A stretch of DNA of 42,060 nt, taken from NCBI GenBank assembly GCA_028278265.1, contig JANQET010000347.1, forward strand, positions 1-42,060, given 5' to 3'. The DNA comes from Myxococcota bacterium. GTDB taxonomy: Bacteria; Myxococcota_A; Polyangia; JAAYKL01. Position 1 is the stretch's first letter, and every line of letters begins with the position of its first letter. Position numbers and translations under genes: made by a program. A model generated the notes under the pieces. The model had not been told where the DNA came from. It was given only the letters and a program-made list of their open reading frames with translations, and searched no databases. Positions 18,544-37,407 of the stretch are shown here, in pieces.

Positions 18544-18547
18544 CGGC

Positions 18548-19813: not shown

Positions 19814-20565
19814 CTGCGTACCTCCACGCCTTGTTCGGCCAATGCCCGTTTGAGTTGTTCCACGGTGTACTCGCCGTAGTGAAAAATCGATGCGGCCAGC
19901 ACCGCATCCGCGCCGACGCGCACCGCCTCGACCATGTGGTCGGGGGTGGCCGCCCCGCCCGAGGCGACGATCGGTACTTCGACCACCTCACTGATCGCAC
20001 GGATCAGCTCCAAGTCGTAGCCGGACTTGGTTCCGTCCCGATCCCACGAGGTCAGCAGGATTTCACCCGCGCCCCGGGAGACCGCTTCACGCGCCCATTC
20101 GACCGCGTCCTTGCCCGTGCGACGGCGACCGGAGAGCGTGACCACTTCGAATCCCCCCTCGGGCCGGCGCGCCGCATCGATCGCCAACACCGTGCACTGG
20201 CAGCCGAACCGCCCGGCCAGCTCGTCGAGCAGCTCTGGACGCTCCACCGCCGCGGTGTTCACCCCCACTTTGTCGGCCCCGGCCTCGAGCAGGGCCCGCG
20301 CGTTGTCGGCCACGCGGACCCCGCCTCCCACAGTGAGGGGAATGGAGAGCCGCTCGCGCACCTTTTGCACGGTTTCATAGGCCGTGGCCCGGCCTTCGGG
20401 GGTGGCCGATACATCGAGCAGGGTGAGCTCGTCGGCCCCCTGATCCTCGTACGCGCCGGCCAGCTCGGGCGGCGACCCGGCGTCCTTGAGCCCCTGAAAT
20501 CGAATGCCCTTGACCACCCGTCCGTCCCGCACGTCCAGACAGGGAATAATTCTCACGGTTAGCAT
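19810..20565 (-). CDS. hisF: Imidazole glycerol phosphate synthase, cyclase subunit
   Basis: A (beta-alpha)8-barrel protein of 251 residues that closes the imidazole ring using ammonia from HisH. Family motifs are all present: RIIPCLDVRDGRVVKG at the start (catalytic Asp11-equivalent), the VGGGVRVADNARALLEAGADKVGVNTAAV phosphate region, EILLTSWDRDGTKSGYDLELIRA (the second catalytic Asp) and SGGAATPDHMVEA near the end. Length is standard. The start ATG at 20565 lies 7 bp inside hisH with a perfect AAGGAGG ribosome site, so HisH and HisF are translationally coupled, matching their 1:1 complex. Confidence 0.97.
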   Translation of the reverse strand: MLTVRIIPCLDVRDGRVVKGIRFQGLKDAGSPPELAGAYEDQGADELTLLDVSATPEGRATAYETVQKVRERLSIPLTVGGGVRVADNARALLEAGADKVGVNTAAVERPELLDELAGRFGCQCTVLAIDAARRPEGGFEVVTLSGRRRTGKDAVEWAREAVSRGAGEILLTSWDRDGTKSGYDLELIRAISEVVEVPIVASGGAATPDHMVEAVRVGADAVLAASIFHYGEYTVEQLKRALAEQGVEVRR

Positions 20566-21185
20566 GGACTACCTCCTTGGGTCATCGCCCGATCGAGCCA
20601 ACGGCGAATGAGCGTCGAGCCGAACTGACTGGACAGCTCCGGGTGAAATTGACAGGCCAGCACGGCGCCCTTTTCCATCGCCGCGACAAACGGGCCGCCG
20701 TAGTCGGCCCAGGCCACGGACCAGCCGTCTGGGGCCTGGCGCAAACAGTAGGAGTTGGCAAAATAGGCATATCCCTCCTCGAGCAATCCGCACGCCTCGT
20801 CGGGCACGACCCGGTTCCAGCCCAGTTGGGGCACCCGCAGCCCTCCAGTGTACCGGGTCACCCGACCGTCAACCACCGCCAGACCGCTGAGCCCGGGACT
20901 CTCGTCGCTGCCGACGCAGAGCATCTGCAACCCCAAACAGACCGCCAGGGTCGGTCGGCCCGCCTGGATCCGTTTGCGCAAGGTCATGATCAATCGAGCG
21001 CTGTTCAACCGCTCCATCGCCGCGGCCAATGTCCCCACTCCCGGCAGGACGAGCAGGGGGGCCTCGGCGATCTGTTCCCGATCTTCGCTGACGACAGCGG
21101 TGGCACCGATGCGCTTCAACCCGGCGAGAATGGACGCTAGGTTCGCGGTGCCGGTGCGCACCACCACGACTTGGGTATCGGTCAT
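20559..21185 (-). CDS. hisH: Imidazole glycerol phosphate synthase, glutaminase subunit
   Basis: A class I glutamine amidotransferase of 208 residues that hydrolyses glutamine and channels ammonia to HisF. The catalytic cysteine is in TLAVCLGLQML, and the His-Glu pair in CQFHPELSSQFG. The N-terminal VVVVRTGTANLASILAGLKRIGA and LVLPGVGTLAAAMERL regions match the family. The ATG at 21185 overlaps the hisB stop by one base (TGATG), a coupling arrangement. The family usually has GVGxFxxAM in the oxyanion region; GVGTLAAAM here is a mild variant. Confidence 0.95.
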   Translation of the reverse strand: MTDTQVVVVRTGTANLASILAGLKRIGATAVVSEDREQIAEAPLLVLPGVGTLAAAMERLNSARLIMTLRKRIQAGRPTLAVCLGLQMLCVGSDESPGLSGLAVVDGRVTRYTGGLRVPQLGWNRVVPDEACGLLEEGYAYFANSYCLRQAPDGWSVAWADYGGPFVAAMEKGAVLACQFHPELSSQFGSTLIRRWLDRAMTQGGSPC

Positions 21186-21772
21186 CAGAGCACCCCCTTG
21201 GTGCTGGGGATGTCACTCGAGCCATCGGTGGCCGCGGCCTGGCGCAGGGCCAGGGCGAGCGCCTTGAAGGCCGCCTCGGCCCGATGGTGGTCGTTCTCCC
21301 CTTTGAGCACATCGACGTGAATCGCGGCACGACTGGTCATGGCCAGCGATTGGATCAGGTGAGTGACGTTCTCACAGGCCAGATCGCCGATGGTGTCCCG
21401 GACGAGGTCCAACTTCACCGCCGCACAGGGGCGGCCCGACAGGTCCACCACGGCCCGGGCCAGCGCTTCGTCGAGGGGGGCATAGGCCCAGCCGAAGCGG
21501 TTGATCCCCCGCCGATCGCCCAGGGCGGTGTCCAGCGCCGCGCCCAAGGCCAGAGCGCAATCCTCGGCACTGTGGTGATCGTCGACGTTCACATCCCCGC
21601 GACAGTCGAGCTGCAGATCGAAGCGACTGTGCCGGGCCAATGTGCCGAGCAGGTGGTTGAGAAATCCGATCCCGGTGTTGATCTTGGCCTCCCCAGTACC
21701 GTCAATGGTGAGGCTCAACTCGATTTGGGTTTCAGTGGTCAGCCGTTCTATGGTTGCGGTTCGTGCGGTCAT
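21185..21772 (-). CDS. hisB: Imidazoleglycerol-phosphate dehydratase
   Basis: A monofunctional IGP dehydratase of 195 residues, without the phosphatase domain seen in enterobacterial HisB. The two metal-binding motifs are present: DDHHSAEDCALALG and ENDHHRAEAAFKALALAL, plus GFLNHLLGTLARHSRFDL near the N-terminus, where the family normally has a FLDHM-type motif. It converts imidazole glycerol phosphate to imidazole acetol phosphate using manganese. The start overlaps the hisC/HAD stop by one base (TAATG). Because this HisB lacks a phosphatase domain, the operon needs a separate histidinol-phosphatase, and the upstream fused HAD domain is the obvious candidate. Confidence 0.96.
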   Translation of the reverse strand: MTARTATIERLTTETQIELSLTIDGTGEAKINTGIGFLNHLLGTLARHSRFDLQLDCRGDVNVDDHHSAEDCALALGAALDTALGDRRGINRFGWAYAPLDEALARAVVDLSGRPCAAVKLDLVRDTIGDLACENVTHLIQSLAMTSRAAIHVDVLKGENDHHRAEAAFKALALALRQAAATDGSSDIPSTKGVL

Positions 21773-23493
21773 TAAAGCACCTCCTCTAAATCGGTCAATC
21801 GATCCCAGACCCGTCCGGCACCGGCTTGAAGCAGCGCTTCGCGGGCGATGGTCTTGTCATCGGCCGGGGCAATTACCCCCAGGGGCAGGACACCGGCCGC
21901 CCTGGCCGAACGGATGTCGTCGGGGGTGTCCCCCACCATCCAGGCCCTGGACACCCGGAGTCGCTCGAGGGCCAACTTCATCGGTTCGGGGCTCGGCTTG
22001 AGGGGTCCGTCGTCCATGGTCACCACCACCGGAAAGAGGTCGCTCAAGCCGTGGCGGATGAGAAAATCATCGGCATCCCGTTTCGGCCGGCCGGTCACCA
22101 CCCCGAGCTTGAATCGGGTGGCCCAGCGGGTGAGGGTTTCGCGATCGATGAGCAATGTCTCGGTTTCTTTTAATCCCCTGCGGGTACCGCTGCCCTGGTA
22201 GAGGGCCTCGAACCGGTCGGTCACAGCCGCCAGGGTGACCTCTTGGCGCTGGTGGCAAATCAGCCGCCAGGTCAGTTCCCAGTCGTTGTTGGCATTGCCC
22301 GCCGCCTTGGCCGCAGTGATATCCTCGGGCCGCACCTCGACGCCGAACGATTCGGCCGTGGCAATCGTCGCCCCGCGGTAGGAGTGGCTCACATCGGCCA
22401 GGGTGTCGTCCATATCGAACAGCAGCGCTTCGGGGGCCAGCACGGTTTGTATCCCGTGGCAGAGCCGGTCGAACGATTCCGCGTCTCCGGGAAGAGTGAT
22501 GCGGGTGCAGTTCTTGAGCTGGGGATTGTCGGGAAAGATACGAATGCCGATACCCAGTCCGGCGAGCCCGTCCCGCAACCACAGGCTGTCGTCGACCCGT
22601 GCGAAGACAAAGTTTCCCTGGGAGGGGGTCGCTTGTGCGCCCAGCGATTGGAACAAATCGACCAGACGAACTCGTTCATCGCGGACGCGGGCGACGAATT
22701 GATCCAGCGCCGGCGCACCGGTTCGGAGGTGCGTGAGGGCGATGGCGATGGATGGCGCAGAGACCGCATAGGGATGACCGACCGCCCGCAGCCATTCGAT
22801 GATTTGCGGCGGGCCGGCGGCAAAACCGATGCGCAGGCCGGCCAGCCCCCACGCTTTGGACAGGGAGCGCACCACCACCGCGTTGGGTAGCTCGAGTGCG
22901 CGGGCAGTCAAATCATCGTCGGCAAATTCGGTGTAGGCCAAGTCGACGAGGAGCACTGCCTGAGGGGCGGCTGCTGAGAGGGCGGTCAAATCGTCGGCAG
23001 TGGCCACCAGCCCGGTGGGGCTGTTCGGCGTGACCACGGTGATCACCGCGGTGTTCGGTGTGACCGCATCGAGCACCGCAGAGGTGGGGTAGGCCCCGTC
23101 CAGCCAAGGCACCTCGACCACCTTGCCGCCGGTCAGCGCCGCATAACGGTCGAGCATTTCAAAGGTGGGCACGGGGAGGATCATCTCCCGGCCGGTACAG
23201 AGCAGCGCGCGCAGCACCCGTTCGAGGGCGTCGTCCCCACCGGCGGTGACCAGCAGGCGATCAGCGGTGACGCCGATGCGGTCGGCCAGTTCCCGCTCCA
23301 GGGGGTTCTGGCTGGGGTAGCGGCGGACGCTGTCGGGGCCGGCGCGCCGAACTGCGTCGAGCACCTCGATCGGTGGGGGCGGTCCCTCGTTGCCCTCCAG
23401 GTGAAGGTCGACCGGGGTGGACGGCCGGGGGGGCCGGTAGGCCGAGACCGCGCTCAACACGGGCGAAGGTTTAATCGGTATCCCATTGGTCAT
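21772..23493 (-). CDS. Histidinol-phosphate aminotransferase fused to a HAD phosphatase
   Basis: A 573-residue fusion, numbered from the ATG at 23493. Residues 1-350 are a fold-type I aminotransferase of the HisC type: HLEGNEGPPPP, RRYPSQNPLERELADRIG, NSPTG substrate loop, and SLSKAWGLAGLRIGFA with the PLP lysine (K213). Residues about 355-573 are a HAD subfamily IA domain: motif I DMDDTLADV (D360, D362), motif II VVTGRPKRDADDF, motif III LKPSPEPMKLAL, motif IV MVGDTPDDIRSARAAG; all catalytic positions are intact. This HAD type resembles TIGR01548. HisC makes histidinol phosphate and the HAD domain would remove its phosphate, the step with no other candidate here. I prefer the ATG at 23493 (AAAGG upstream) over the ATG at 23502. 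Confidence 0.9.
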   Translation of the reverse strand: MTNGIPIKPSPVLSAVSAYRPPRPSTPVDLHLEGNEGPPPPIEVLDAVRRAGPDSVRRYPSQNPLERELADRIGVTADRLLVTAGGDDALERVLRALLCTGREMILPVPTFEMLDRYAALTGGKVVEVPWLDGAYPTSAVLDAVTPNTAVITVVTPNSPTGLVATADDLTALSAAAPQAVLLVDLAYTEFADDDLTARALELPNAVVVRSLSKAWGLAGLRIGFAAGPPQIIEWLRAVGHPYAVSAPSIAIALTHLRTGAPALDQFVARVRDERVRLVDLFQSLGAQATPSQGNFVFARVDDSLWLRDGLAGLGIGIRIFPDNPQLKNCTRITLPGDAESFDRLCHGIQTVLAPEALLFDMDDTLADVSHSYRGATIATAESFGVEVRPEDITAAKAAGNANNDWELTWRLICHQRQEVTLAAVTDRFEALYQGSGTRRGLKETETLLIDRETLTRWATRFKLGVVTGRPKRDADDFLIRHGLSDLFPVVVTMDDGPLKPSPEPMKLALERLRVSRAWMVGDTPDDIRSARAAGVLPLGVIAPADDKTIAREALLQAGAGRVWDRLTDLEEVL

Positions 23494-23509
23494 CGTGGCC
23501 ATCCTTTGC

Positions 23510-24382
23510 TCAGGGAACAATCTGGGTCAGGGAGGTGACGATGATGTCGCTGCCCCCCCGTTTTTTGATTTCCGGAATGATCTCGGGCAGCTGTTTTCGC
23601 GGCACCGCCGCTTTGACCGCATAGCCCGCTCCCCTGTGCAACGGGGACATGGTCGGTTCGCGCATACAGGGCAGAATTTCTATTACCGATTCGAGGGAGG
23701 CCTGGGGCACGTTGACCTCGACCATCACCCGTTGGCGCGCGTCGAGCACCGAGCGCAGCAACAGGCACAGGCGATCCACGTGCTCTTTCTTGGCCGGATC
23801 CCCCAGCAGTTTTCGATTCGCATATAACCGGGTCGATGAGGTCATCAGCTCGTCGACGATGATCAGGTTGTTGGCCCGCAGGGTGCTGCCGGTGGCCGTG
23901 TTGTCCACGATGAGATCCGCGTCTTCCGGGGGAAACACCTCGGTCGCCCCGTAGGAGCGGAAAAACGTGGCGTCGATCCCCTGTCGCTCGATCCACTGGC
24001 GGGTCAGCGTCTCGTATTCCGAAGCGATCACCAGCCGCCGTTGGGGCAGTCGGCCGTTTTCGAGCAGCTCCGTGGGGGCGGCCGCGACGATGCGCACCGG
24101 ATCGAGCCCCGTATCGAGCAGTTCGACGAGATCGAGGTTGAGCTCGGCGACCCAATCGGCGCCGGCAAATCCCAGCTCCCGTGAGCCCAAGCCGAGCATC
24201 TCGAGCATGTTCTGCGGCCGCAGCACCTTGGTCTCGAAACCAGGGAGGGAAACGGACGGTCGATAGCCGCGGCTGGTGGCCCGAACGCGGATCCCGGCCT
24301 CGGCGAGCAGTTCGAATACACTTTTTTGCATGCTGCCCTTGGGCAGGGCGAGTCGTACGGTTGAATCTTGTTTGTTGGTCAT
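23510..24382 (-). CDS. hisG: ATP phosphoribosyltransferase, long form
   Basis: Catalyses the first, committed step: ATP plus PRPP to phosphoribosyl-ATP. The 290-residue length and C-terminal segment (about 215-290, with VMVEVNVPQASLESVIEILPCMREPTMSPL and AAVPRKQLPEIIPEIKKRGGSDIIV) mark the long, HisZ-independent form with a regulatory ACT-like domain that typically binds histidine. The PRPP loop VDNTATGSTLRANNL and LALPKGSMQKSVFELL N-terminus are clear. It is the first structural gene after the leader peptide and terminator; the ATG has AAAAGGAG upstream. Feedback inhibition by histidine plus attenuation would give two layers of control. Confidence 0.96.
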   Translation of the reverse strand: MTNKQDSTVRLALPKGSMQKSVFELLAEAGIRVRATSRGYRPSVSLPGFETKVLRPQNMLEMLGLGSRELGFAGADWVAELNLDLVELLDTGLDPVRIVAAAPTELLENGRLPQRRLVIASEYETLTRQWIERQGIDATFFRSYGATEVFPPEDADLIVDNTATGSTLRANNLIIVDELMTSSTRLYANRKLLGDPAKKEHVDRLCLLLRSVLDARQRVMVEVNVPQASLESVIEILPCMREPTMSPLHRGAGYAVKAAVPRKQLPEIIPEIKKRGGSDIIVTSLTQIVP

Positions 24383-24745: not shown

Positions 24746-24797
24746 ATCTCCGCTGTAATCGTCTGAGTCCCTTGCGCAGGGGAGAAAGGGAGTGGAA

Positions 24798-25157
24798 ATG
24801 AACAAAACATCAATGAGAATCATCTGGGCGGCGTTACTCGGTCTGGCCATCGGTGTGTGCTGGATAACCGTATCGTGTGACTCCAGCAAACCCGAAACAG
24901 AGGATCCCGAGGATCCCAAGTGCAACGACAACGAGGAGCGTTGCGACGACGACATGATTCAGCGTTGTGCAGAAGGGCAATGGATCGATTGGAAAGACTG
25001 CACGCGTATCGATCAGGACTGTGTCGAGGTCATCATTACCGACACTGATACAGCCACTGAAGATATTTTTGCCGGTATCGAATGCCAAGTAGGCTCAGGC
25101 GGCGATGCTGACGGAGATGCTGACGGAGATTCCGACTCGGACGCCGACACGGACTAG
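24798..25157 (+). CDS. Small Asp-rich lipoprotein-like protein
   Basis: A 119-residue protein from the ATG at 24798 (AAAGGGAG upstream; an in-frame GTG at 24792 would place that site too close). The N-terminus is a signal sequence, MRIIWAALLGLAIGVCWITVSC, with Cys near the expected lipidation site, though the lipobox (TVSC) is weak. The middle has six or more cysteines (CNDNEERCDDD, IQRCAEGQWIDWKDC) like short surface modules in myxobacterial proteins. The last 17 residues (25104-25154) are Asp-x repeat running to the stop, so the tract ends the protein rather than linking two domains; it may be a truncated relative of the long repeat lipoproteins. Function unknown. Confidence 0.7.
   Translation: MNKTSMRIIWAALLGLAIGVCWITVSCDSSKPETEDPEDPKCNDNEERCDDDMIQRCAEGQWIDWKDCTRIDQDCVEVIITDTDTATEDIFAGIECQVGSGGDADGDADGDSDSDADTD
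25104..25154 (+). repeat. C-terminal Asp-x repeat
   Basis: Seventeen codons, Asp at almost every second position with Ala, Gly, Ser or Thr between, ending at the TAG stop. Two perfect copies of GATGCTGACGGA start the tract. Same repeat class as in the two larger lipoproteins. Confidence 0.8.
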
Positions 25158-26614: not shown

Positions 26615-27721
26615 TTACAGGTAGTTTCCGATTTGATCGAGGGAATCGACGCGGGTCGCGCCTTCGGCGAGGAGGGGGACGATCGTGACGGCCTCCAATC
26701 CGTCCCAGGCATCGCGCACTCGGTCGATCATAACGCGCTCCTGATTAAACGCGCTGTTCCACTCCCGGTTGATGCGCTCCATCTCGCCGGCGATGTCCGA
26801 ATCGACAATGTCCGGTGGTGGCGGCGCTTGGGGATGGTGGGCCCGGTTGAAGATCACCCCATCCACCATCAATCCCAGCTGATGTAAGCGGTGTCGAAAT
26901 TCACGGGTTTCGCGCAGGGTGGCCCGGTCCGGTGTCGTGACGAGGAAGAACGCGACCTCTTCGCTGGTCAGCACCTGTTCCACTTGGCGAGCCCGGATAC
27001 CGAAACCGCCGAACAGATCGGACAACGCATCGACAAAATCGACCATTTCACCCACCAGCTCCACACCGGCAATGCGGCCAATCGTGCGAAAGATCACCTG
27101 GGCCCAACGCCCCACCAGGTCGATACCGAACCGACCGGCATGGCCGTAAGCCCGGCGCATCAGCCGGACCAGTTTGCCGTCCAGGGCTTCGACCATGCGC
27201 TGTGGGGCGGTAAAAAAATCGATCGCGTTGGCTGTCGGCGGCGTGTCGAGCACGATCAGCTCCACGTTCGGATCATCGGCAATGGCGCATAGTTTTTCCA
27301 GGGCCATGTACTCCTGCAACCCGCTGAGCGAGCCGGAGACGTAGCGGTAGAGCCGGTTGTGAAAAATGCGCTCCATCACCGCCTGCGAGGAAGCCCGCTG
27401 GCGAATCACCTCGGCGAACGCCTGCTTGGTGTCCAGCATGCCGAAGGAGAGGCGGCCTTGGGGATGGGCAGCAGGACCCAGAATCGATGTGACATCGGCG
27501 ATCCCGTCGGTTCCCCGCTCGTTGCCGACCCCCAGGCTATCGGCCAACCGCCGTGCCGGATCGATCGTCAGGCAGACCACCCGGCGACCCTCCCGCGCGG
27601 CCTTGACCGCCATCGATGCCGCCAAGGTGGTCTTGCCCACGCCGCCGGCCCCGACACAGACGATGATACGACGCCGGTGCAAAAAGGGATCGACTGCGCC
27701 GTGATCCGTACCGCCGATCAT
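26615..27721 (-). CDS. ArsA/Get3-family ATPase
   Basis: A 368-residue single-domain ATPase. The start at 27721 overlaps the lipoprotein stop in an ATGA; longer frames run into that gene. Walker A is GAGGVGKTTLAAS (24-32 and on), then LTIDPARRLADSLG, typical of switch I of ArsA/Get3, and LIVLDTPPTANAIDFF as Walker B/switch II. The deviant Walker A lysine (GKGGVGKT) is Ala here, as in a known subclass of bacterial ArsA-like proteins with GSGGVGKT or GAGGVGKT. No arsenite-ligand cysteines are evident, so an arsenic function is unlikely. It is the last gene of the ACP/radical SAM operon. It could power insertion or release of a membrane-bound substrate (inference). Confidence 0.85.
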   Translation of the reverse strand: MIGGTDHGAVDPFLHRRRIIVCVGAGGVGKTTLAASMAVKAAREGRRVVCLTIDPARRLADSLGVGNERGTDGIADVTSILGPAAHPQGRLSFGMLDTKQAFAEVIRQRASSQAVMERIFHNRLYRYVSGSLSGLQEYMALEKLCAIADDPNVELIVLDTPPTANAIDFFTAPQRMVEALDGKLVRLMRRAYGHAGRFGIDLVGRWAQVIFRTIGRIAGVELVGEMVDFVDALSDLFGGFGIRARQVEQVLTSEEVAFFLVTTPDRATLRETREFRHRLHQLGLMVDGVIFNRAHHPQAPPPPDIVDSDIAGEMERINREWNSAFNQERVMIDRVRDAWDGLEAVTIVPLLAEGATRVDSLDQIGNYL

Positions 27722-29607
27722 CGCAACACTTCGAACCGATTTTGGATCAGCTGCAGCACATGGGGCAGGGCCCGGGGTTCTCCTTCCGGGGTGAATCCAT
27801 CGAACGGGGTCACCAGGGAGAGCGTCGGGGATTGCGGTTCCGCGGTGGCACTGAGCCATCGCCGGATGCCGTCACGGGTGGTGGTACCGGAGCGAATCGC
27901 GGTGCCGATCAGCGCGGCAGCGTCGTGACCGAATGCGGCCAGATAGCTCGGTGGTCTGTTGTATTCAATGTGAAACCGTTTGGCAAAGTCGGCCATCTGC
28001 CCCATGTCGTCCGGATAGAAGAAGGTTGAGAACATCGCCCCTTGCAGGTAGCGGCCCCCCCGTCGAATGAGATCCGGAGCGATGCCGATCGACGGTATCA
28101 AGAGGCGCACGTTGCGACCCGGTCCCGGTGGCTCATCCCCTTCGAAACCGGACCAGACGCCCACCGCGGCGAGTGCCGGAGCGATCAGCACCAGGCGGGA
28201 GGCTTGATCGGGGATGAACAGGGTGTCGAACTCGGCCTCGGCCAATTGGGTCGCTTCCGCGGTGAACGAGCGACTCGACGCGTCATAGGGGATGGCGATC
28301 TCGAGGGGAAGCTCACGTTGTGCCAACACCTCGGAGAACAAGCGGTGCATTGTCTGACCGTACCCGTTTTGTGGGTAGAGCATGGCAAAACGCTGCGCCC
28401 CGTTGGCCAGGGCCGACTCGACCAGGGAGCGAACCTCGGCATTACTCGTCGAGAATTGGCGGAAGATGAAGCGGCCGGTTTGGGGAACCCCGTCCTTGAC
28501 GGTCAGCGACAGCATCGGCACACCGAGCTCATTGGCCCGCTCAGCCGCCGGGATGGCCGTGGACACATCCACCGGCCCGATAATCGCGATCACCTGCTCT
28601 TCGAGCACCAGCTCCTCCACTGCGGCCACGGCTCGATCGGGATCTCCGCCTGAATCGCGAATCGTTACGTTCAACCGGTTCCGACCTCCCGATCGCGGAT
28701 CGCCCTGGCTGCCCAACATCACCCCTTTGAGCACTGCTTCACCGATCAGGCGGGTCCGACCGGAGAGGGGAACGATACAGCCAATCGTCGTTGCGTCGAC
28801 CGCCGAACGGCGCTCGATCAGCGAAGCGATATCGGTGATTGAAGGGTGATCGGACAATCCCTCTTCTTTGACTTCGGCGACGATACGGCCGGCCAGCTCG
28901 AGCTGGCCCGCCTCGAAATAGAGGGCCATCAGGCGGGCCATTACCACCGGCCAGGCGGATTGTTGCGGATCGAGCAACGGCTTGATCGCCAGCAGATCTG
29001 CAGGGGCGTCGATTGTGGCGCAGGCGTCGGCCAGGGCGTTGTGAATGGCCTCCCGGCGGGTCGCTGTCAGCGGTTGAGTGAGTAGCCGATCGAGCCAGGT
29101 GATCGTTTGAGTTGTATCACCGACAGCGCTGGACGCTTGCCACAGGGTTTCGAACAACAAGATGTTTTCGGTCGGATCGGTCAAGCGATCGACGAACCGT
29201 TTCAGTGTTTCAATCGCCTCGGCGTGCCGTCCCATCGCCTGAGCGGCGACGCCGTTGTAGAAGGCCGCCCGTTCGGCCAGGGGACTGGTGCTGCCGGCGA
29301 GTGGTGCGAGCAGCTCCCGTGCTCGTCCGGGATTGTCCTGCAGTAGGGCGATGCGGGCGCGATAGATCGTCGCCGGCTCGGCCAGGGGATCGCTGGGGTG
29401 TTCGCCGATGAGCTGGGCAAAGGAGGCGTCCGCTGCCGTCAGGTCCCCCTGGTCGAACCGATCGCGGGCCTGCCGAAAAAGCGCTTCGACCTCTGGATCA
29501 TCGCTGGCCACCGCCATCGGCGCCAACGGCGTGGGCGCGGTTTTACATCCCGTGGCACACGCAGCGAAGACGATTGGCAACCACCACTTCAGCCGCTGCT
29601 TCCCCAT
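27718..29607 (-). CDS. LpoA-like lipoprotein with TPR-type N-terminus and periplasmic-binding-protein C-terminus
   Basis: A 629-residue lipoprotein. The ATG at 29607 (TGATG overlap with the ketoacyl synthase stop) begins a signal peptide MGKQRLKWWLPIVFAACATGC, with a lipidated Cys likely. Residues 35-270 are helical and TPR-like (EALFRQARDRFDQGDLTAADASF, LIGEHPSDPLAEPA). From about 285, TIGCIVPLSGRTRLIGEAVLKGVMLG opens a type I periplasmic binding fold, with VIAIIGPVDVSTAIPAAERANELGVPMLSLT and FAMLYPQNGYGQTMHRLFSEVL. This order matches PBP activators (LpoA, outer-membrane regulators of peptidoglycan synthesis). Its place in the ACP/radical SAM operon is odd for a cell-wall activator, so it may sense the operon's product (inference). 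Confidence 0.82.
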   Translation of the reverse strand: MGKQRLKWWLPIVFAACATGCKTAPTPLAPMAVASDDPEVEALFRQARDRFDQGDLTAADASFAQLIGEHPSDPLAEPATIYRARIALLQDNPGRARELLAPLAGSTSPLAERAAFYNGVAAQAMGRHAEAIETLKRFVDRLTDPTENILLFETLWQASSAVGDTTQTITWLDRLLTQPLTATRREAIHNALADACATIDAPADLLAIKPLLDPQQSAWPVVMARLMALYFEAGQLELAGRIVAEVKEEGLSDHPSITDIASLIERRSAVDATTIGCIVPLSGRTRLIGEAVLKGVMLGSQGDPRSGGRNRLNVTIRDSGGDPDRAVAAVEELVLEEQVIAIIGPVDVSTAIPAAERANELGVPMLSLTVKDGVPQTGRFIFRQFSTSNAEVRSLVESALANGAQRFAMLYPQNGYGQTMHRLFSEVLAQRELPLEIAIPYDASSRSFTAEATQLAEAEFDTLFIPDQASRLVLIAPALAAVGVWSGFEGDEPPGPGRNVRLLIPSIGIAPDLIRRGGRYLQGAMFSTFFYPDDMGQMADFAKRFHIEYNRPPSYLAAFGHDAAALIGTAIRSGTTTRDGIRRWLSATAEPQSPTLSLVTPFDGFTPEGEPRALPHVLQLIQNRFEVLR

Positions 29608-30866
29608 CAGCTCACCACGAGGCAGACATTGCACCCGCCAAAGCCGAAAGAGTTTTTGAGCACGGCTCGCTGGGGCAACTCCCGCGCCTTAGCGGCCAAT
29701 CCGTCAAGGGGCAGCTTGGGGTCGGCATTGTAATTGATCGTCGGCAGGAGTATTCCGCGACGGAGACCTTCGATGGCGCAGATCAACTCGACGGCGCTGG
29801 AGGCCCCCATCGAGTGACCGATTTGTGCTTTGTTGGCGGTGATCGGCATGTTCCGGTCGGCGCCGAATACTTCGGCGATGGCGTTGACCTCAATCCGGTC
29901 GCCCACCGCCGTGGAAGCGGCGTGCGCATTGACGGCATCGATGTCACCGGGGTCGAGCTCGGCCTCGGCCAGTGCCTGACGAATGCAGGTGACGATGGTC
30001 GGCAGATTCGGGGCCACGTAGTGCTTGGCGTCCGAGGTCATGCCGATGCCGCGAATGACTCCCCGCACCGGCAACTGGTGTTGCTCGGCGTAGCTCGACG
30101 TGGTGACGATCAACGCCGCCGCTGCCTCAGAGACGACAAATCCCTTGCGGTCCAACGAAAAGGGCCGGGAGACCTTGGTCGGATCCCGGTGGGCGCGATC
30201 GGTCTCTTTGTCGCTCTTGAAGGCGCCGTTCATCGACGCAAATGATGCGAGCAGCGACGGGATCACCGGAAAATCGCAGGCACCGGCGATGACCACGTCG
30301 GCGCGGCCGCTCTGCAGCAACAGGGCGGCGTTGGCCACCGAGGCAGCGCCGGTGGCGCAGGCGGCGACCGGACTGAAGATCGGTCCCTGGGCGCCGGTGA
30401 GGATCGACACTTTGCCCGCGACCAGGTTGAGGCAGCCGTTGGGCCCGGTAAAGGGGTGCGGGGTGCGGCCGGCCCGAAGCTTGGCTTCGGCCCCGATCAT
30501 CGCATCGAGCCCACCGATGGCCGAGGAAAAGGTGATGCCCACCCGGCCGGCGTTGGACTCGTCGATGGTCAGTCCCGCGTGACGACAGGCCCGCTGGGCG
30601 ACCAACATCGAATGAAAAATCACCGGCGAGAACCAATTGGCTTCGTCACGCTCGGACCAGAAGTCGTATTTGGAGAAATCGATCCGGGGAACTTCGCCGG
30701 AGACCCGCACCGGAAACTCCTCGGTCACGGTGAACCGGCTCACCCAATCCACGCCCGAGCGGCCGGCGGCAAAGGCCTCCCACTGGGCCTCGGGTTCACT
30801 GCCCAACGGTGTGACCATGTCGTATCCGACGATGACAATATCGTCTTTTTGAGTGGCGCGACCCAT
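29607..30866 (-). CDS. Beta-ketoacyl-ACP synthase (FabF-like)
   Basis: A 419-residue thiolase-fold condensing enzyme. The Cys-His-His triad is complete: C170 in SPVAACATGAAS, H315 in NAHAASTAVGD and H351 in KAQIGHSMGASSAVE. The usual EAHGT reads NAHAA, and KSxxGH reads KAQIGH. The end NSFGFGGCNVCLVV is normal. It joins an acyl chain to malonyl-ACP or decarboxylates malonate on a carrier. I chose the ATG at 30866: the further upstream frame starts with TTG and overlaps the radical SAM gene. The gene begins 4 bp after the radical SAM stop and its own stop overlaps the lipoprotein start. A dedicated ACP is two genes upstream, so it probably serves a specialised acyl pathway, not bulk fatty-acid synthesis. 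Confidence 0.92.
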   Translation of the reverse strand: MGRATQKDDIVIVGYDMVTPLGSEPEAQWEAFAAGRSGVDWVSRFTVTEEFPVRVSGEVPRIDFSKYDFWSERDEANWFSPVIFHSMLVAQRACRHAGLTIDESNAGRVGITFSSAIGGLDAMIGAEAKLRAGRTPHPFTGPNGCLNLVAGKVSILTGAQGPIFSPVAACATGAASVANAALLLQSGRADVVIAGACDFPVIPSLLASFASMNGAFKSDKETDRAHRDPTKVSRPFSLDRKGFVVSEAAAALIVTTSSYAEQHQLPVRGVIRGIGMTSDAKHYVAPNLPTIVTCIRQALAEAELDPGDIDAVNAHAASTAVGDRIEVNAIAEVFGADRNMPITANKAQIGHSMGASSAVELICAIEGLRRGILLPTINYNADPKLPLDGLAAKARELPQRAVLKNSFGFGGCNVCLVVS

Positions 30867-30870
30867 CGTG

Positions 30871-31881
30871 CTACCAGGGTACGTATTCGTACAGTTTGGC
30901 AAACATATGGGTCACGTCGACCCAGTTGGCAAAATCGGTTGGTGATTGCATGTGGTCCCGTTTGTTGACCATGATCCAGGACATCGTCGCAGCCCCGTCG
31001 TGGCAGGTGGCGCAGTCGCGGGTTACCGAGGTGCAGCACCGATGAATGGTCGCCAGATCCGAGGCAAAGGAGTTGAAGCCGGCCAACCGCTTGGGCTGGG
31101 GTTGCCGATCGTCGACCGCTTGAGAGACCGACGGGCATTCCATCCAGCCGAACGGGCGGCCGAGCAGGGTTTGGGTCGTCAGCACTTGGTGGTAGTATTT
31201 CGAGGAGACCACCACCTGGGGGCGCAGCTCGAGTTGCTCATCCATCACATCGCGGACCCGTTGATAGTCGGCGTCACTCCAGTCGAAGCCCGACACGTGT
31301 TGGTCGTTGGAGAACAGCTGGTAGTGCACCCGCAGGCCGGCGTCTTCGATCTTCTGGGTCACCGTGGGAATCTGATCGATGCTCCGCGGTGTGATGGTGT
31401 AGAGGTAGTACACGTTGGGATCATCGCGGTAGTTGTCCCGGGAGATCTTGAACGTGTTGATCCCCCTCAGCTCCTTTTCGTACTCTTCGTCCCCCCACAG
31501 GGAGATGCCCACCCGCATCGAGGGGAAGCGTTCGCGGGAGATCTTCTTCACCCCGTTGGTCGCCGAAGAACACTTGATGTTGGCGTACCAGACGTCGAGC
31601 CGGTCTAATGAGAGAGAGGGCTCCCCGCCGATCAGGATGGCATAGTTGACCCCCCGTTCTTTCTCTTTTTCGATGAACGCTTTGAGCTTGCCCAGATCTT
31701 TTTCGTCGTCGACCTTGTGCTGATCGCTCGAAAAGTAGAAGCACCCCTTGCACCGCAGGTTGCAGGAGTTGTTGACATCGTAAATAGAGCTGCGCATGCC
31801 CTTGAGCCCGGCCATGTTCTTGATGTCGTCGTATTTCTTCTGCGTGTCGGGATCCTGAATCAGGTCTTTTATCGTCAGCAC
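30871..31881 (-). CDS. Radical SAM protein 1 of the ACP/KS operon
   Basis: A 336-residue radical SAM enzyme, start GTG at 31881 with a GGCGGAG ribosome site 8 bp upstream. The cluster motif is C40-x3-C44-x2-C47 (SCNLRCKGCFYF), and AILIGGEPSL (85-90) is the standard SAM-binding GGEP. The C-terminal third carries CPSVSQ and then RCCTSVTRDCATCHDGA, a possible auxiliary Fe-S site. It shares N-terminal and C-terminal patterns with the gene just upstream, so they are paralogs. It does not match a function I recognise. Radical SAM enzymes of this size can mutate, couple or cross-link unactivated carbons; a carrier-bound acyl chain is a plausible substrate given the ACP and ketoacyl synthase beside it. 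Confidence 0.88.
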   Translation of the reverse strand: MLTIKDLIQDPDTQKKYDDIKNMAGLKGMRSSIYDVNNSCNLRCKGCFYFSSDQHKVDDEKDLGKLKAFIEKEKERGVNYAILIGGEPSLSLDRLDVWYANIKCSSATNGVKKISRERFPSMRVGISLWGDEEYEKELRGINTFKISRDNYRDDPNVYYLYTITPRSIDQIPTVTQKIEDAGLRVHYQLFSNDQHVSGFDWSDADYQRVRDVMDEQLELRPQVVVSSKYYHQVLTTQTLLGRPFGWMECPSVSQAVDDRQPQPKRLAGFNSFASDLATIHRCCTSVTRDCATCHDGAATMSWIMVNKRDHMQSPTDFANWVDVTHMFAKLYEYVPW

Positions 31882-31917
31882 CGTTCTACTCCGCCACAGC
31901 GCTTGTTGCGCGGGTTT

Positions 31918-32931
31918 TCAAGTATATAGATTCTCGTCTTTCGCATACCCCATCACCCAGACCGCCAGGTAGGTGTCCACGTAGTCGAGCCATTTGCTGA
32001 AGGCTTGGACCGAGTCCGTGTGTCGGGCCATGCGGGCGGTGACAATGGCCGAGCCGGCCGCGTAGTGGCGACAGTCGACGCAATCGGTGTCCGGCACACA
32101 GCACGATGCCGCCCGATCCCAGGTCAGGTCCGAGCGGTACTGGCGGAAGCTGCGACCCAAGCCGAGACCGGTGTTCGGATTTTGCCGGGGATAGGGGCAT
32201 TTGAACCGTTGGTGCAGCGACTGCTCCGGGTCGGTGTGCACCTCTGCGTTGTACCGGGAAAACAGCACCGCCCGGGGATAGCGGTCGAGCAGCTCGAGCA
32301 TCTTGTCGTGGGTTTTGTGAAAGCTCGCCGCGTCCATCGACAACGGGCCGCTGTAGTTGACCGGCGGGGAGAACACATTGAAGGTCACCTGTCCGCCCCG
32401 GTCGGCGATCCGCTGCACTTGGCTGTCCGCCTGATCGATATTGTGGCTGGTGAAGGTGTAGACAAACACCGCCCGATCATCCCCCGCAAAACTCTGCAGT
32501 TGTTGGTCGAGACAGGGACGCCCGCGGTAGGTCTTGGATTCGTCGTCATCCCCCCAAACAGAAATGTGAACCCGGTAGCGGATGTCCGCCGGAAACGGCT
32601 TGAGCCCATTGGAGGCGATGCAGCCGTGGGGAATGACCTCATAGCAGGCCCGACAGAGCTCAGGGACCAGTCCCGGTTCGGCACCGGCGAGCACGACAAA
32701 GGTGATGCCCCGTTCCTTTTCGGCGGTCATCAGTTGACGCCAGCGGGCCGGATCCCGCTCGTCGACGGTGTGTTGCTTGTCCCCCTCGTAGTAGTAACAC
32801 CCCTCGCATCGCAGATTGCAGCGGTTGGTCATATCGTAGGTGGACTCCCGCAAAAAGAAATACTGTTTGATCTTTTGCCACCGCTCGTTGATTTGGGGAG
32901 TTGCCAGGATTTGCTTGAACGTGGTGCTCAC
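31918..32931 (-). CDS. Radical SAM protein 2 of the ACP/KS operon
   Basis: A 337-residue radical SAM enzyme, start GTG at 32931, 6 bp after the ACP stop. The cluster motif is C38-x3-C42-x2-C45 (RCNLRCEGCYYY). The GGEP box reads LAGAEPGL (82-88), so one glycine is replaced by Ala. Sequence conserved with the paralog: (Q/D)xIK near residue 20, YD(V/M)xNxCNLRC, and MTAEKERGITFVVLAGAEPGL against EKEKERGVNYAILIGGEPSL. The C-terminus has KCPYP and SCCVPDTDCVDCRHY, the same candidate auxiliary cysteines. Function unknown; the pairing suggests sequential reactions or a heterodimer. Confidence 0.88.
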   Translation of the reverse strand: MSTTFKQILATPQINERWQKIKQYFFLRESTYDMTNRCNLRCEGCYYYEGDKQHTVDERDPARWRQLMTAEKERGITFVVLAGAEPGLVPELCRACYEVIPHGCIASNGLKPFPADIRYRVHISVWGDDDESKTYRGRPCLDQQLQSFAGDDRAVFVYTFTSHNIDQADSQVQRIADRGGQVTFNVFSPPVNYSGPLSMDAASFHKTHDKMLELLDRYPRAVLFSRYNAEVHTDPEQSLHQRFKCPYPRQNPNTGLGLGRSFRQYRSDLTWDRAASCCVPDTDCVDCRHYAAGSAIVTARMARHTDSVQAFSKWLDYVDTYLAVWVMGYAKDENLYT

Positions 32932-32937
32932 CGCCGA

Positions 32938-33174
32938 TTATGCCTTCTTGTTTTGAACATATGCTGTGATTTTTGCCAGCGTGGTCAGTTGAGCAAAATC
33001 ATCCTCGTCGATTTTGATTTTGAACTCATCTTGGAGAATGACGACGATGGTCGTCAGCTCCATGCTGTCGATACCGAGATCCTCGATTAGATTGAGTTGG
33101 GGATCAAATGTAGCGGGGGTAACATCTTTTAGTTTGAGTTCATCAATTATGATCTTGGCGATCTTCTCTTGCAT
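32938..33174 (-). CDS. Acyl carrier protein
   Basis: A 78-residue acyl carrier protein. The phosphopantetheine site is Ser37 in EDLGIDSMELTTIV, a normal DSM/DSL motif, with helices flanking as in FAS ACPs. Length and acidity are typical. The ATG at 33174 is preceded by GAGG; an in-frame start further out at 33231 would add 19 residues without family resemblance. It is the first gene of the minus-strand operon, 6 bp before the GTG of radical SAM 2. It is a specialised carrier rather than the housekeeping AcpP, which usually lies beside fabF, fabD and fabG; here only a ketoacyl synthase accompanies it. Confidence 0.9.
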   Translation of the reverse strand: MQEKIAKIIIDELKLKDVTPATFDPQLNLIEDLGIDSMELTTIVVILQDEFKIKIDEDDFAQLTTLAKITAYVQNKKA

Positions 33175-33376: not shown

Positions 33377-33454
33377 CCTCCGGCCTTTGCTCCAGCATGG
33401 CAAACAGGCTCGGTTACACGCCGAATTAACCACTAACGCAATAGAGTGAACAAC

Positions 33455-35461
33455 ATGACAACAAATCACACCTCAATAGACCAACGATGCATCAATGCCC
33501 TTCGCTTCTTGTCAATCGACGCCGTCCAACAGGCGCGCTCCGGTCACCCCGGGCTGCCGATGGGCGCCGCGCCGATGGCGTATGTGCTGTGGAAGCGGTT
33601 TTTGAACGTCAATCCCCAAGATACCAACTGGCTCAATCGGGATCGGTTTATTCTCTCGGCCGGGCACGGCAGCATGCTGCTCTATGCGCTGCAGTACCTC
33701 GCCGGATTCGAGGGCATGCCCCTCGACGCGATCAAGAACTTTCGCCAGTATCAGTCCGTTGCCACCGGACACCCGGAGAACACGCTCGTCCCGGGCATCG
33801 AGGTAACCACCGGTCCGCTGGGCCAGGGTATCTCCAACGCGGTGGGCATGGCGATTGCCGAAGCACACCTGGCCGCCCGGTTCAACAAGCCCGAGTTTAA
33901 GGTGGTTGATCATCATATATATACGATCGCGGGCGACGGTTGCATGATGGAAGGGGTCTCCAGTGAGGCCTGCTCCTTGGCCGGCCACCTCGGACTGGGC
34001 AAGTTGATCACCCTCTATGACGAAAATCGGATTACGATTGATGGGGCAACCGATCTCACGTTTACCGAAGATATTGGCAAGCGATTCGATGCCTACGGCT
34101 GGCACGTGCAGATCGTCGAAGACGGCAACCACGATTTGGAGGGCATCGCCGCGGCGATTGAGCAGGCCAAGTCGGTGACCGACAAACCGTCCCTAATCCG
34201 CATCCGCACCACTATCGCCTACGGATCGCCGAACAAGGCGGGGTCTTCGGGCTCCCACGGTGCTCCCCTGGGGGACGAGGAGATTCAAAAGACCCGGGAG
34301 AACCTGGATTGGCCCTACGCCCCGTTCGAGATTCCCGACGATGTGTTGGCCCAGATGCGGGAAATCGGCGCGGACGGTGCCCGGGCGCAGCAGAAATGGA
34401 GCGAGCTCTTTACCGGCTATCAAGAGCACTACCCCGCTGAGGCCAAGGAGTTGGAGCGGTTAGTTCGCGGCGAGCTGCCCCAGGGATGGACCGCCGGACT
34501 GCCCACCTATACCCCGGCAGACAAGGGGGATGCGACCCGCAACCTGTCCGGTCAGTGCCTCAACGGCGCTGCCGCCACCGTACCGGAGCTGATCGGCGGA
34601 TCCGCGGATCTGGCCGGTTCCAATAAAACCCACCTCAAGGAATCCAGCTATCTCCAGCGGGGAGAGATGGGCGGCAGAATCGTACCGTTCGGTGTTCGGG
34701 AACACGGGATGGGGGCGATCTGCAACGGTATTGCGCTCTACGGTGCCGGGTTGATTCCCTATTGCGCGACCTTCCTCGTTTTCACCGATTACATGCGCGG
34801 CGCCATTCGCAACGCGGCGTTGAGTGATGCCGGGGTGATTTACGTGATGACCCACGATTCCATTGCCGTGGGAGAGGACGGACCAACCCATCAACCCGTG
34901 GAACACCTGGCTGCCCTGCGGGCGATTCCCAATCTCAACGTGATCCGGCCGGCTGACGGCAAGGAGACCGCGGGCGCCTACCAGGTGGCGATCGAGAGCC
35001 GAAACCGTCCGACCCTGATCGCCCTCTCCCGGCAAAGTGTACCCCATCTCGAGCACACCGGCGCGGACCAGGTCGGTCGGGGGGCGTATGTCTACTCGGA
35101 CAGCGACGGGCCGGCAGCGCTGATTCTGATCGGCACGGGCACCGAGCTCAGCCTGTGCGTGGAAGCCGCAGCCGTGCTCGAGAAGAAGGGGTTGGCCGTG
35201 CGGGTGGTCTCCATGCCCAGTTGCTCCCTGTTCGAGCGGCAGGACGAGGCGTACCGGGAGTCGGTCCTACCCCGCGGAGTGACCAAGCGCTTGGCCGTCG
35301 AGGCGGGGTGCGACATGGGGTGGCACCGCTATGTGGGATCCGAAGGGGCGACGGTTACGATCAACCGCTTCGGCACCTCTGCCCCCGGGGCCCAGTGTCT
35401 GGAGTTGTTCGGATTTAGCGTAGAGAATGTCGTTTTACAGGCGACAAAACTGCTGGGATAG
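33455..35461 (+). CDS. tkt: Transketolase
   Basis: A 668-residue thiamine-diphosphate transketolase for the non-oxidative pentose phosphate pathway, moving two-carbon units between sugar phosphates. Signature parts are intact: SGHPGLPMGAAPMAYVLW at the N-terminus, GDGCMMEGVSSEA for the diphosphate loop, the GPLGQGISNAVGMAIAE segment, and VMTHDSIAVGEDGPTHQPVEHL in the pyrimidine-binding domain. I start at the ATG at 33455; a GTG at 33446 is an alternative with no better ribosome site. The downstream Fe-S protein gene begins 14 bp after the stop, so they may be co-transcribed although their functions differ. Confidence 0.96.
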   Translation: MTTNHTSIDQRCINALRFLSIDAVQQARSGHPGLPMGAAPMAYVLWKRFLNVNPQDTNWLNRDRFILSAGHGSMLLYALQYLAGFEGMPLDAIKNFRQYQSVATGHPENTLVPGIEVTTGPLGQGISNAVGMAIAEAHLAARFNKPEFKVVDHHIYTIAGDGCMMEGVSSEACSLAGHLGLGKLITLYDENRITIDGATDLTFTEDIGKRFDAYGWHVQIVEDGNHDLEGIAAAIEQAKSVTDKPSLIRIRTTIAYGSPNKAGSSGSHGAPLGDEEIQKTRENLDWPYAPFEIPDDVLAQMREIGADGARAQQKWSELFTGYQEHYPAEAKELERLVRGELPQGWTAGLPTYTPADKGDATRNLSGQCLNGAAATVPELIGGSADLAGSNKTHLKESSYLQRGEMGGRIVPFGVREHGMGAICNGIALYGAGLIPYCATFLVFTDYMRGAIRNAALSDAGVIYVMTHDSIAVGEDGPTHQPVEHLAALRAIPNLNVIRPADGKETAGAYQVAIESRNRPTLIALSRQSVPHLEHTGADQVGRGAYVYSDSDGPAALILIGTGTELSLCVEAAAVLEKKGLAVRVVSMPSCSLFERQDEAYRESVLPRGVTKRLAVEAGCDMGWHRYVGSEGATVTINRFGTSAPGAQCLELFGFSVENVVLQATKLLG

Positions 35462-35475
35462 ACAATAACGCAACC

Positions 35476-37407
35476 ATGGCGACGACAATGACAAAGCGCG
35501 TCTTGATCGAGTTGGACGGCCGACCGGTCGAGGCGGCCCATCACGAATCCATCTTGGCGGTGGCCCAGCGGCACGGGATCGAGATTCCGACCTTGTGTCA
35601 CCACGAAGCGCTCGAACCGGGAGATGCCTGCCGGCTGTGTCTGGTCGAGGTGATGCGCGGAGAGCGGCGCAAGTTGGTCACCGCGTGCAACTATCCCGTC
35701 GAAGAGGGCGTTGCGGTGAACACCACTACCCCGGCGATCGAATCCCATCGCCGGATGGTGGTCGAGCTGCTCTGGGCCCGCTGTCCTGAAGCGCCGGCGC
35801 TCAAGGTGCTCGCCCAACGCTATGGTCTGACCGCACCGCGATTCAACGTGGATGCGGAGACCTGTATCCTCTGCGGGTTGTGTACGCGGGTGTGCGAGTC
35901 GTATGCCACAACGGCGATCGCCGTGTTGAACCGCGGTGAAAAACGGTCGATCGGCACGGTGGGCGATGCACCGCCGGACGATTGCATCGGCTGCGGCGGC
36001 TGCGCTCAGATCTGCCCCACCGGGCATATCACCGACCAGCGTCGGGTGGGTTCGTACGAGATTTGGAATACCCGTTTCCCCCTGGCCACCTGTGCCGTGG
36101 ATGCGTCAAAATGCCGGGGTTGCGGCGCCTGTGCCGAGGCCTGCCCCTTTGCCGTTCCCCGGGTGCGGTTGCAGCGGGCTGGTTCTGCATTGGCCGAGAT
36201 TTCGATCGAGGCCTGTCGGGGATGTGGTGTGTGCTTCGGGGTCTGCCCTGCCGGCGCGATCGACCAACCCAGGGCGAAGCGCCGACTACCGGCCGTGCCG
36301 TCGAAAAGCGACGGGGGGAGCCTGCTCGTGCTCGCCTGTGCGCGGGCCAATTTAACGGGCTCGATACCGCGGCAACTTCCCCCGGGAGTTCTGGTTCACG
36401 AGCTGCCCTGTACCGGTGCGGCGGATCCGGCACTGTTGCTGGGCGCTCTGGCCCAGGGGTTCGACGGGGTGCTCGTGCTGGGCCGCCACCAGGAGACCTG
36501 TCGGCTCAACGGCGGCGAAACCGCGGCCCGGGAGGTGGTGGATCGGGTGAATCGTTTGGCCCGACTGGTCGGCCTGGGTGAGAACCGGGTGGTGTTCCAC
36601 GAGCCGGCACCGGGGTTTGACGGAGCGGCCAACGCCATTACCGATCACGCGAAAACGCTCAATCGCTCCCCCTTGCCCGCCCCGGCGCCGGCTGACCTCA
36701 AGACAGGGACACTTGACGACGCCCTGGGGGTTGTGGAGTGGTTCGGTCGGCAAAAGGGGCTCGTTCCGGCGGAGCACATCTGGATTGCCGACCAACAGTT
36801 GCCGCTGGCTCGGCCCGGACAATCCGCACTGGCCCTGGATCGACTACCTCAATTGGATCTGTTGCTGGGGCCCCTGCTCAAGCCGGCTGAGCTGGCCCAA
36901 GTGGCCGCCGATGGGCTGTATCTGCTGGGTGAGCTGGGCATCGATGCGGGGCTGGCCGTCAGCGCACCGTCCGATCAAGGGAGGGAAACCGGGGATCGGT
37001 TTACGCTTGATGGGATCGATCCTCTTGTCGTCGAACGGGGACTCCCGTTGAAACCGGCAGACGCCGATCTGCCGACAGTTGCCGTGGGAGAGGGAGACGA
37101 GCTCCTTCATCGGGCGGTGTCCACCTGGGGCTGTCCGATAGTCGAGCTGGCCCCTGCACCTCTTCTGGAGCTGACCCTGGCGCTCGGACGAGACGATCTC
37201 CAACGCATCGAAGAGCGGCTGGTTCAGGCCGGACAGCAGGGCGCGCAGTTCCTGCTGTTGCCGAATCTGAGCCAGCTCGTGCAGCACCTACTGGTTCAAC
37301 GGCACGGCGGATGGCGCCGCTCCCACGTCAAACCCCTGCTGCTCCCGAGCCTATCGGCCCACCTGCTCCGAAACGCTCGCAAGAGCGGGGTGGGGCGTTG
37401 CGCCTAA
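35476..37407 (+). CDS. Multi-cluster Fe-S protein: 2Fe-2S, four 4Fe-4S and MvhD-like domain
   Basis: A 643-residue protein. Residues 8-80 are a NuoG/HoxU-type 2Fe-2S ferredoxin with C41, C52, C55 and C71. Four 4Fe-4S motifs follow: CILCGLCTRVC, CIGCGGCAQIC, CRGCGACAEAC and CRGCGVCFGVC (about 130-265). Residues 285-385 match the MvhD/FlpD domain that links Hdr-type complexes to hydrogenase or formate dehydrogenase: LLVLACARAN, LPCTGAADPALLLGAL, GVLVLGRHQETCRLNGG. Two of its normal cysteines are lost (the second Cys of the N-terminal motif and the GCH that reads GRH). The last 240 residues are unfamiliar and leucine-rich. It may distribute electrons in a flavin-bifurcating or quinone-linked complex, but no partner enzyme is in the window. 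Confidence 0.8.
   Translation: MATTMTKRVLIELDGRPVEAAHHESILAVAQRHGIEIPTLCHHEALEPGDACRLCLVEVMRGERRKLVTACNYPVEEGVAVNTTTPAIESHRRMVVELLWARCPEAPALKVLAQRYGLTAPRFNVDAETCILCGLCTRVCESYATTAIAVLNRGEKRSIGTVGDAPPDDCIGCGGCAQICPTGHITDQRRVGSYEIWNTRFPLATCAVDASKCRGCGACAEACPFAVPRVRLQRAGSALAEISIEACRGCGVCFGVCPAGAIDQPRAKRRLPAVPSKSDGGSLLVLACARANLTGSIPRQLPPGVLVHELPCTGAADPALLLGALAQGFDGVLVLGRHQETCRLNGGETAAREVVDRVNRLARLVGLGENRVVFHEPAPGFDGAANAITDHAKTLNRSPLPAPAPADLKTGTLDDALGVVEWFGRQKGLVPAEHIWIADQQLPLARPGQSALALDRLPQLDLLLGPLLKPAELAQVAADGLYLLGELGIDAGLAVSAPSDQGRETGDRFTLDGIDPLVVERGLPLKPADADLPTVAVGEGDELLHRAVSTWGCPIVELAPAPLLELTLALGRDDLQRIEERLVQAGQQGAQFLLLPNLSQLVQHLLVQRHGGWRRSHVKPLLLPSLSAHLLRNARKSGVGRCA

Follow-up and report, generated by a model that had tools for sequence, protein, structure and literature searches.

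Since 2009, radical SAM genes found in unusual type II fatty-acid synthesis (FAS) clusters have been candidates for the formation of anaerobic polyunsaturated lipids and ladderanes. FAS clusters of Kuenenia that contain radical SAM genes are syntenic with clusters of Desulfotalea psychrophila, which makes C31:8 and C31:9 hydrocarbons and in which ladderanes were not found (Rattray 2009, PMC2649909). Expression of anammox genes in Escherichia coli yielded no new fatty acids (Javidpour et al., PMC4790861), and clusters termed 'ladderane' by antiSMASH have been reported in Desulfobacterota and Myxococcota (PMC9902471). In the ladderane literature that we surveyed, no activity has been shown for the radical SAM genes of such clusters. 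Here, we analyzed a four-gene module encoding an acyl carrier protein (ACP), two paralogous radical SAM proteins (rSAM_A and rSAM_B), and a FabF-like ketoacyl synthase (KS), which is located on a 42,060-nucleotide contig of a Myxococcota bacterium (JANQET010000347.1, assembly GCA_028278265.1; C162 in our numbering). This whole stretch is hereafter called the window. Our literature search for a module of twin radical SAM proteins, ACP, and KS found only ladderane papers.

To define the conserved unit, we searched named genomes with an rSAM_B profile and kept the best 80 of 307 relatives, from which 58 loci with enough flanking sequence were used for counting co-occurrence. rSAM_A and rSAM_B were in tandem in all 58 loci, with the ACP just upstream of rSAM_A in 55 and the KS just downstream of rSAM_B in 55. 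An initial annotation, made from the sequence of the window, had described a dedicated ACP and condensing enzyme flanking twin radical SAM proteins, and had proposed a neighborhood search for their co-occurrence across genera; this arrangement was borne out across phyla. Thus, ACP–rSAM_A–rSAM_B–KS (29607-33174) is a conserved unit. The best 80 matches came from Desulfobacterota, Myxococcota, Spirochaetes, and one Planctomycetota metagenome-assembled genome, and the Desulfobacterota carriers include the complete genome of Desulfosarcina widdelii. The nearest module-bearing relatives are labelled Myxococcota or Deltaproteobacteria. Carriers of the module number in the hundreds and are mostly anaerobic; in Desulfobulbales, the radical SAM pair was present in about one third of 146 genomes, nearly always in tandem. 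A viral origin was rejected, as no relatives were found in viral contigs.

The window's family includes seven further genomes with the pair, and these keep the order ACP, rSAM_A, rSAM_B, KS, except that the KS is displaced in one and contig ends cut two. The gene content 3′ of the KS was different in every genome. The four proteins are co-inherited: their distance matrices correlated with Mantel r of 0.64-0.80 (0/300 permutations). In a phylogenetic tree, rSAM_A and rSAM_B were each monophyletic, with support of 0.95 and 0.996, indicating that their duplication is older than the spread of the module. The two proteins thus appear to be old paralogues that have been retained together.

One locus, L026 (11983-17075), has an ABC transporter pair between rSAM_B and the KS, and the final 18 residues of rSAM_B recur before the KS. 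This spacer was considered as an insertion sequence, which was ruled out when Pfam identified it as an ABC transporter. In another locus, L038, rSAM_B is followed by the same ABC transporter.

We then examined the proteins of the module. rSAM_A and rSAM_B share 30% identity over 340 columns, in agreement with the relatedness noted in the initial annotation. The CxxxCxxC motif is invariant in both proteins among the 70 sequences in which the radical SAM and KS residues were judged (Cys38, 42, and 45 in rSAM_A; Cys40, 44, and 47 in rSAM_B). Each protein has five further invariant cysteines in its C-terminal part (245, 277, 278, 284, and 287 in rSAM_A; 249, 282, 283, 290, and 293 in rSAM_B), spaced C-x(31-32)-CC-x(5-6)-C-x2-C, which would suffice for an auxiliary iron-sulfur cluster. 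In the KS, Cys170, His315, Lys346, and His351 are invariant but for one gapped row, and Ser37 in the GIDSM motif of the ACP is invariant in 15 orthologues. The predicted dedicated ACP and FabF-type KS correspond to what is expected of a type II cluster of the ladderane or aryl-polyene kind.

The radical SAM pair fits no curated family: none of the six proteins encoded at the locus, including the lipoprotein and ATPase described below, reached the cut-off of any NCBIfam model. The closest PDB neighbors of both AlphaFold models were the SPASM/twitch enzymes SkfB, SuiB, anSME, BlsE, and DesII, with TM about 0.5. Like SPASM/twitch enzymes, rSAM_A and rSAM_B combine a radical SAM core with an additional cysteine-rich C-terminal part. 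However, their cysteine spacing is their own, neither protein matches Pfam SPASM, and the structural match to these enzymes covers mainly the core, the C-terminal part being poorly covered in Foldseek.

To characterize the genomic context, we counted neighboring domains in 41 long loci outside the window's family. The module was accompanied by a second KS in 39 loci, a 4HBT hotdog thioesterase in 38, a PS-DH dehydratase in 38, a B12-binding radical SAM protein in 28, KS-CLF in 23, a short-chain dehydrogenase/reductase (SDR) in 22, LolA in 22, PlsY in 16, and MMPL in 13. In other Myxococcota families, a CrtI-like oxidoreductase was added and, in some, an ammonia lyase. These surroundings are those of a lipid or polyene-type pathway of the type II FAS or polyketide synthase (PKS) kind. 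Aryl-polyene type II PKS clusters bear KS and KS-CLF, ACPs, a hotdog thioesterase, a dehydratase, LolA, an MMPL exporter, an acyltransferase, and a glycosyltransferase, and such genes surround the module in many hosts. Aryl-polyene clusters are not known to have a radical SAM pair, and the module in the window has no other aryl-polyene genes alongside it. A second carrier-protein context was found in two other Myxococcota (L039:474-9965 and L040:9186-18512), where a solo rSAM_B-like gene with 33-35% identity adjoins a PKS of about 2,700 residues (2,759 in one) with the domain order AMP-binding-KS-AT-DH-KR-ACP-TE; we counted this in favor of carrier-bound substrates.

Based on these observations, the module is probably responsible for radical tailoring in an unusual lipid pathway of the type II fatty-acid/polyketide-like kind. 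Once charged, the dedicated ACP would hold the growing acyl chain, and the FabF-like KS would elongate it before or after the radical SAM proteins act. Most hosts would rely on enzymes of the cluster for reduction and dehydration, and the window's family would draw on housekeeping FAS enzymes for these steps. We infer that rSAM_A and rSAM_B work on the ACP-bound chain, either sequentially or at two positions; turnover of acyl-ACP would be consistent with the genomic association. The 5′-deoxyadenosyl radical would abstract hydrogen, and the putative C-terminal auxiliary cluster would accept an electron. A double bond, a ring, or a C–C bond would thereby form without oxygen, and the finished chain would pass to a membrane or envelope lipid. 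With the auxiliary cluster as electron acceptor and polyene-type neighbors, an oxidative outcome such as desaturation would fit, and desaturation is our guess for the reaction. More tentatively, the unnamed pair may carry out a new oxygen-independent desaturation, cyclization, or C–C coupling on acyl-ACP and give rise to an undescribed lipid class. The proposed substrate has a precedent in the HemN-like radical SAM cyclopropanase Jaw5 of an iterative PKS, which competes with a KS for the ACP-bound polyketide chain (PMC13389473). Jaw5 has a Cx7CxxC motif and acts singly, whereas rSAM_A and rSAM_B form a pair with CxxxCxxC and extra cysteines.

Several observations weigh against this assignment. 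The module is isolated in the window's family: KS-CLF, dehydratase, thioesterase, and exporter were absent beside it in the window and in five loci of the family. A search of the window's own genome (7.67 Mb, 516 contigs, 90.65% complete) found no partner lipid cluster. KS-CLF-like genes on contig C188 were considered as such a partner and rejected, as they lie among unrelated genes. The co-occurrence counts are valid only for sequences that share about 55% identity or more, because the 80 loci were the best matches. Four Planctomycetota genomes (L149, L150, L151, and L152) have a solo relative scoring 372-383 bits, and the contexts read contained neither a KS nor an ACP of this module; in L151, the neighbors of the solo relative are lipoate-ligase genes and a further radical SAM gene. 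The wider superfamily is therefore not tied to acyl-ACP. In addition, the nearest structural neighbors (SkfB, SuiB, and anSME) are mostly peptide modifiers, and the alignment to them spans mainly the core.

Among the alternatives, the one that survives best, although we consider it unlikely, is that rSAM_A and rSAM_B build an unusual starter or extender unit on the ACP, with an amino acid or a small acid as possible precursors. The KS would then condense this unit into a normal fatty-acid chain, and neither radical SAM protein would touch a long acyl chain. A HAL-type ammonia lyase in some Myxococcota clusters around the module is a possible source of an aryl starter, and the PKS next to the solo relative begins with an AMP-binding loading domain. 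However, the module itself has no adenylation enzyme or loading ligase, and the ammonia lyase was found just three times among nine loci of other Myxococcota and once among 41 others. Modification of a peptide or protein, perhaps the ACP itself, in the manner of SPASM maturases of ribosomally synthesized and post-translationally modified peptides, is improbable. This idea draws on the closest solved structures, most of which are peptide maturases, but the small protein matches the ACP family with an invariant phosphopantetheine serine, the partner KS is catalytically intact, and no precursor peptide was recognized.

A third alternative places the pair in a ring-forming pathway of the ladderane type, homologous to the anammox one. 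Clusters of Kuenenia and D. psychrophila share with our loci a type II FAS-like character, extra KS and ACP genes, radical SAM genes, oxidoreductases, and an MMPL-like membrane protein, and many of their genes share loci with the module in Desulfobacterota. There, the B12-binding radical SAM protein, KS-CLF, polysaccharide deacetylase, SDR, and MMPL are shared with the Kuenenia-like cluster, and antiSMASH makes its 'ladderane' calls in this phylum as well as in Myxococcota (PMC9902471). To compare the radical SAM proteins directly, we recognized anammox genomes by hydrazine synthase alpha. In one such genome, the two radical SAM proteins of the ladderane-type cluster matched a SPASM-type (44%) and a B12-binding (34%) radical SAM protein of Desulfobacterota clusters, but scored only 14-25 bits at best against the rSAM_A and rSAM_B profiles. 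We therefore rejected orthology with the anammox pair (kuste3342/3343 by content). Even in whole anammox genomes, matches to rSAM_A and rSAM_B reached at most 67 bits and were partial. Together with the lack of detected ladderanes in D. psychrophila (PMC2649909), this makes the ladderane alternative very improbable. The anammox radical SAM pair is distinct, and in the window's family the remaining cluster genes are missing. rSAM_A and rSAM_B are thus a further component, which occurs with or without ladderane-like genes and which our searches of anammox genomes did not find. The initial annotation had recognized no known pathway with this gene set. This stands insofar as no curated family covers the pair, but related type II FAS clusters with radical SAM genes had been described for anammox bacteria and certain deltaproteobacteria (PMC2649909).

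Two further genes, encoding an LpoA-like lipoprotein and an ArsA-like ATPase, follow the KS in the window (26615-29607; Table 1), and the initial annotation had joined all six into one system. The packing that it described was confirmed by coordinates: all six genes are on the minus strand, with gaps of 6 bp (ACP/rSAM_A), 36 bp (rSAM_A/rSAM_B), and 4 bp (rSAM_B/KS), one base shared between the KS stop and the lipoprotein ATG, and a 4-bp overlap (ATGA) between the lipoprotein and ATPase genes. Likewise, no ketoreductase, dehydratase, or acyltransferase lies between the six genes. Tight spacing and overlapping start and stop codons make joint transcription in this genome likely. Nevertheless, conservation separates the four genes at the 5′ end from the two at the 3′ end. 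Relatives of the lipoprotein or ATPase were found in 0 of 99 fetched radical SAM loci. A lipoprotein orthologue was present in 10 of 10 genomes of the window's family tested, four of them without the radical SAM pair, and in relatives it sits on other contigs than the module. In each of the five relatives whose loci were checked, the ATPase gene comes immediately after that of the lipoprotein, with 45-61% identity. Among the genomes examined, the two genes are joined to the module only in the window genome. Because they are conserved separately, we dropped them from the system and judged them to be an unrelated unit that neighbors the module by chance. Despite the close packing in this genome, a single six-gene system in which the lipoprotein and ATPase deliver or sense the modified lipid is hardly credible, and we rejected the six genes as a conserved arrangement. 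Of the originally proposed function, the radical change of a carrier-bound acyl chain gained support from the acyl and lipid clusters around the module elsewhere, whereas no support was found for delivery or sensing by the lipoprotein and ATPase.

Within the window's family, the genes for the lipoprotein and the BagB-like ATPase are conserved as a pair and may constitute an envelope system of their own. The lipoprotein scored 26.6 bits against LppC, below the Pfam cut-off of 28.8, and Peripla_BP_6 was the better match. The nearest NCBIfam model for the ATPase was BagB (E 4e-74), whose cut-off of 521 bits was not reached (249.8 bits).

Table 1. Coordinates of genes and neighboring features in the window
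Feature	Positions	Strand	Evidence and remarks
Acyl carrier protein (ACP), 78 aa	32938-33174	-	PP-binding E 9e-13; GIDSM phosphopantetheine site, Ser37
rSAM_A, radical SAM protein	31918-32931	-	Radical_SAM E 8e-7; C38xxxC42xxC45; AlphaFold pLDDT 88
rSAM_B, paralogue of rSAM_A	30871-31881	-	Radical_SAM; C40xxxC44xxC47; AlphaFold pLDDT 92
FabF-like ketoacyl synthase (KS)	29607-30866	-	ketoacyl-synt N + C, E 1e-33; active site intact
TPR/periplasmic-binding-protein-like lipoprotein (LpoA-like)	27718-29607	-	Peripla_BP_6 E 1e-35 + TPR; judged outside module
ArsA/Get3-type ATPase	26615-27721	-	ArsA_ATPase E 3e-26; judged outside module
Transketolase and Fer2/Fer4/FlpD iron-sulfur protein	33446-37407		Divergent from ACP
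Short lipoprotein-like protein	24792-25157		C-terminal Asp/Gly-rich repeat DADGDSDSDADTD; no Pfam match
Histidine operon with fused genes	17275-24382		
Fused gene of histidine operon	18548-19813		His_biosynth domain fused to PRA-CH + PRA-PH
Fused gene of histidine operon	21772-23520		Aminotransferase fused to HAD domain

On the other side of the module, the transketolase and iron-sulfur protein genes have counterparts in other loci: a transketolase relative lies upstream of the ACP in locus L036, and an iron-sulfur protein relative does so in L025. No RNA family of Rfam was matched in the window, and promoter and terminator scans gave site numbers not above those of shuffled sequence.

The analysis sets the ACP, the two radical SAM proteins, and the KS apart from the rest of the cluster as a compact and portable subset. 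Cultured sulfate reducers carry it, among them Desulfosarcina widdelii, Desulfobulbus rhabdoformis, and Desulfogranum japonicum, and in the window's family only these four genes are left. Such clusters get lumped with the ladderane pair of anammox bacteria, from which the radical SAM proteins of the module are distinct. The module offers a small test case for the question of whether radical SAM enzymes act on ACP-bound acyl chains. If the proposed function is true, an undescribed lipid class would be made by hundreds of species, most of them anaerobic, from at least three phyla.

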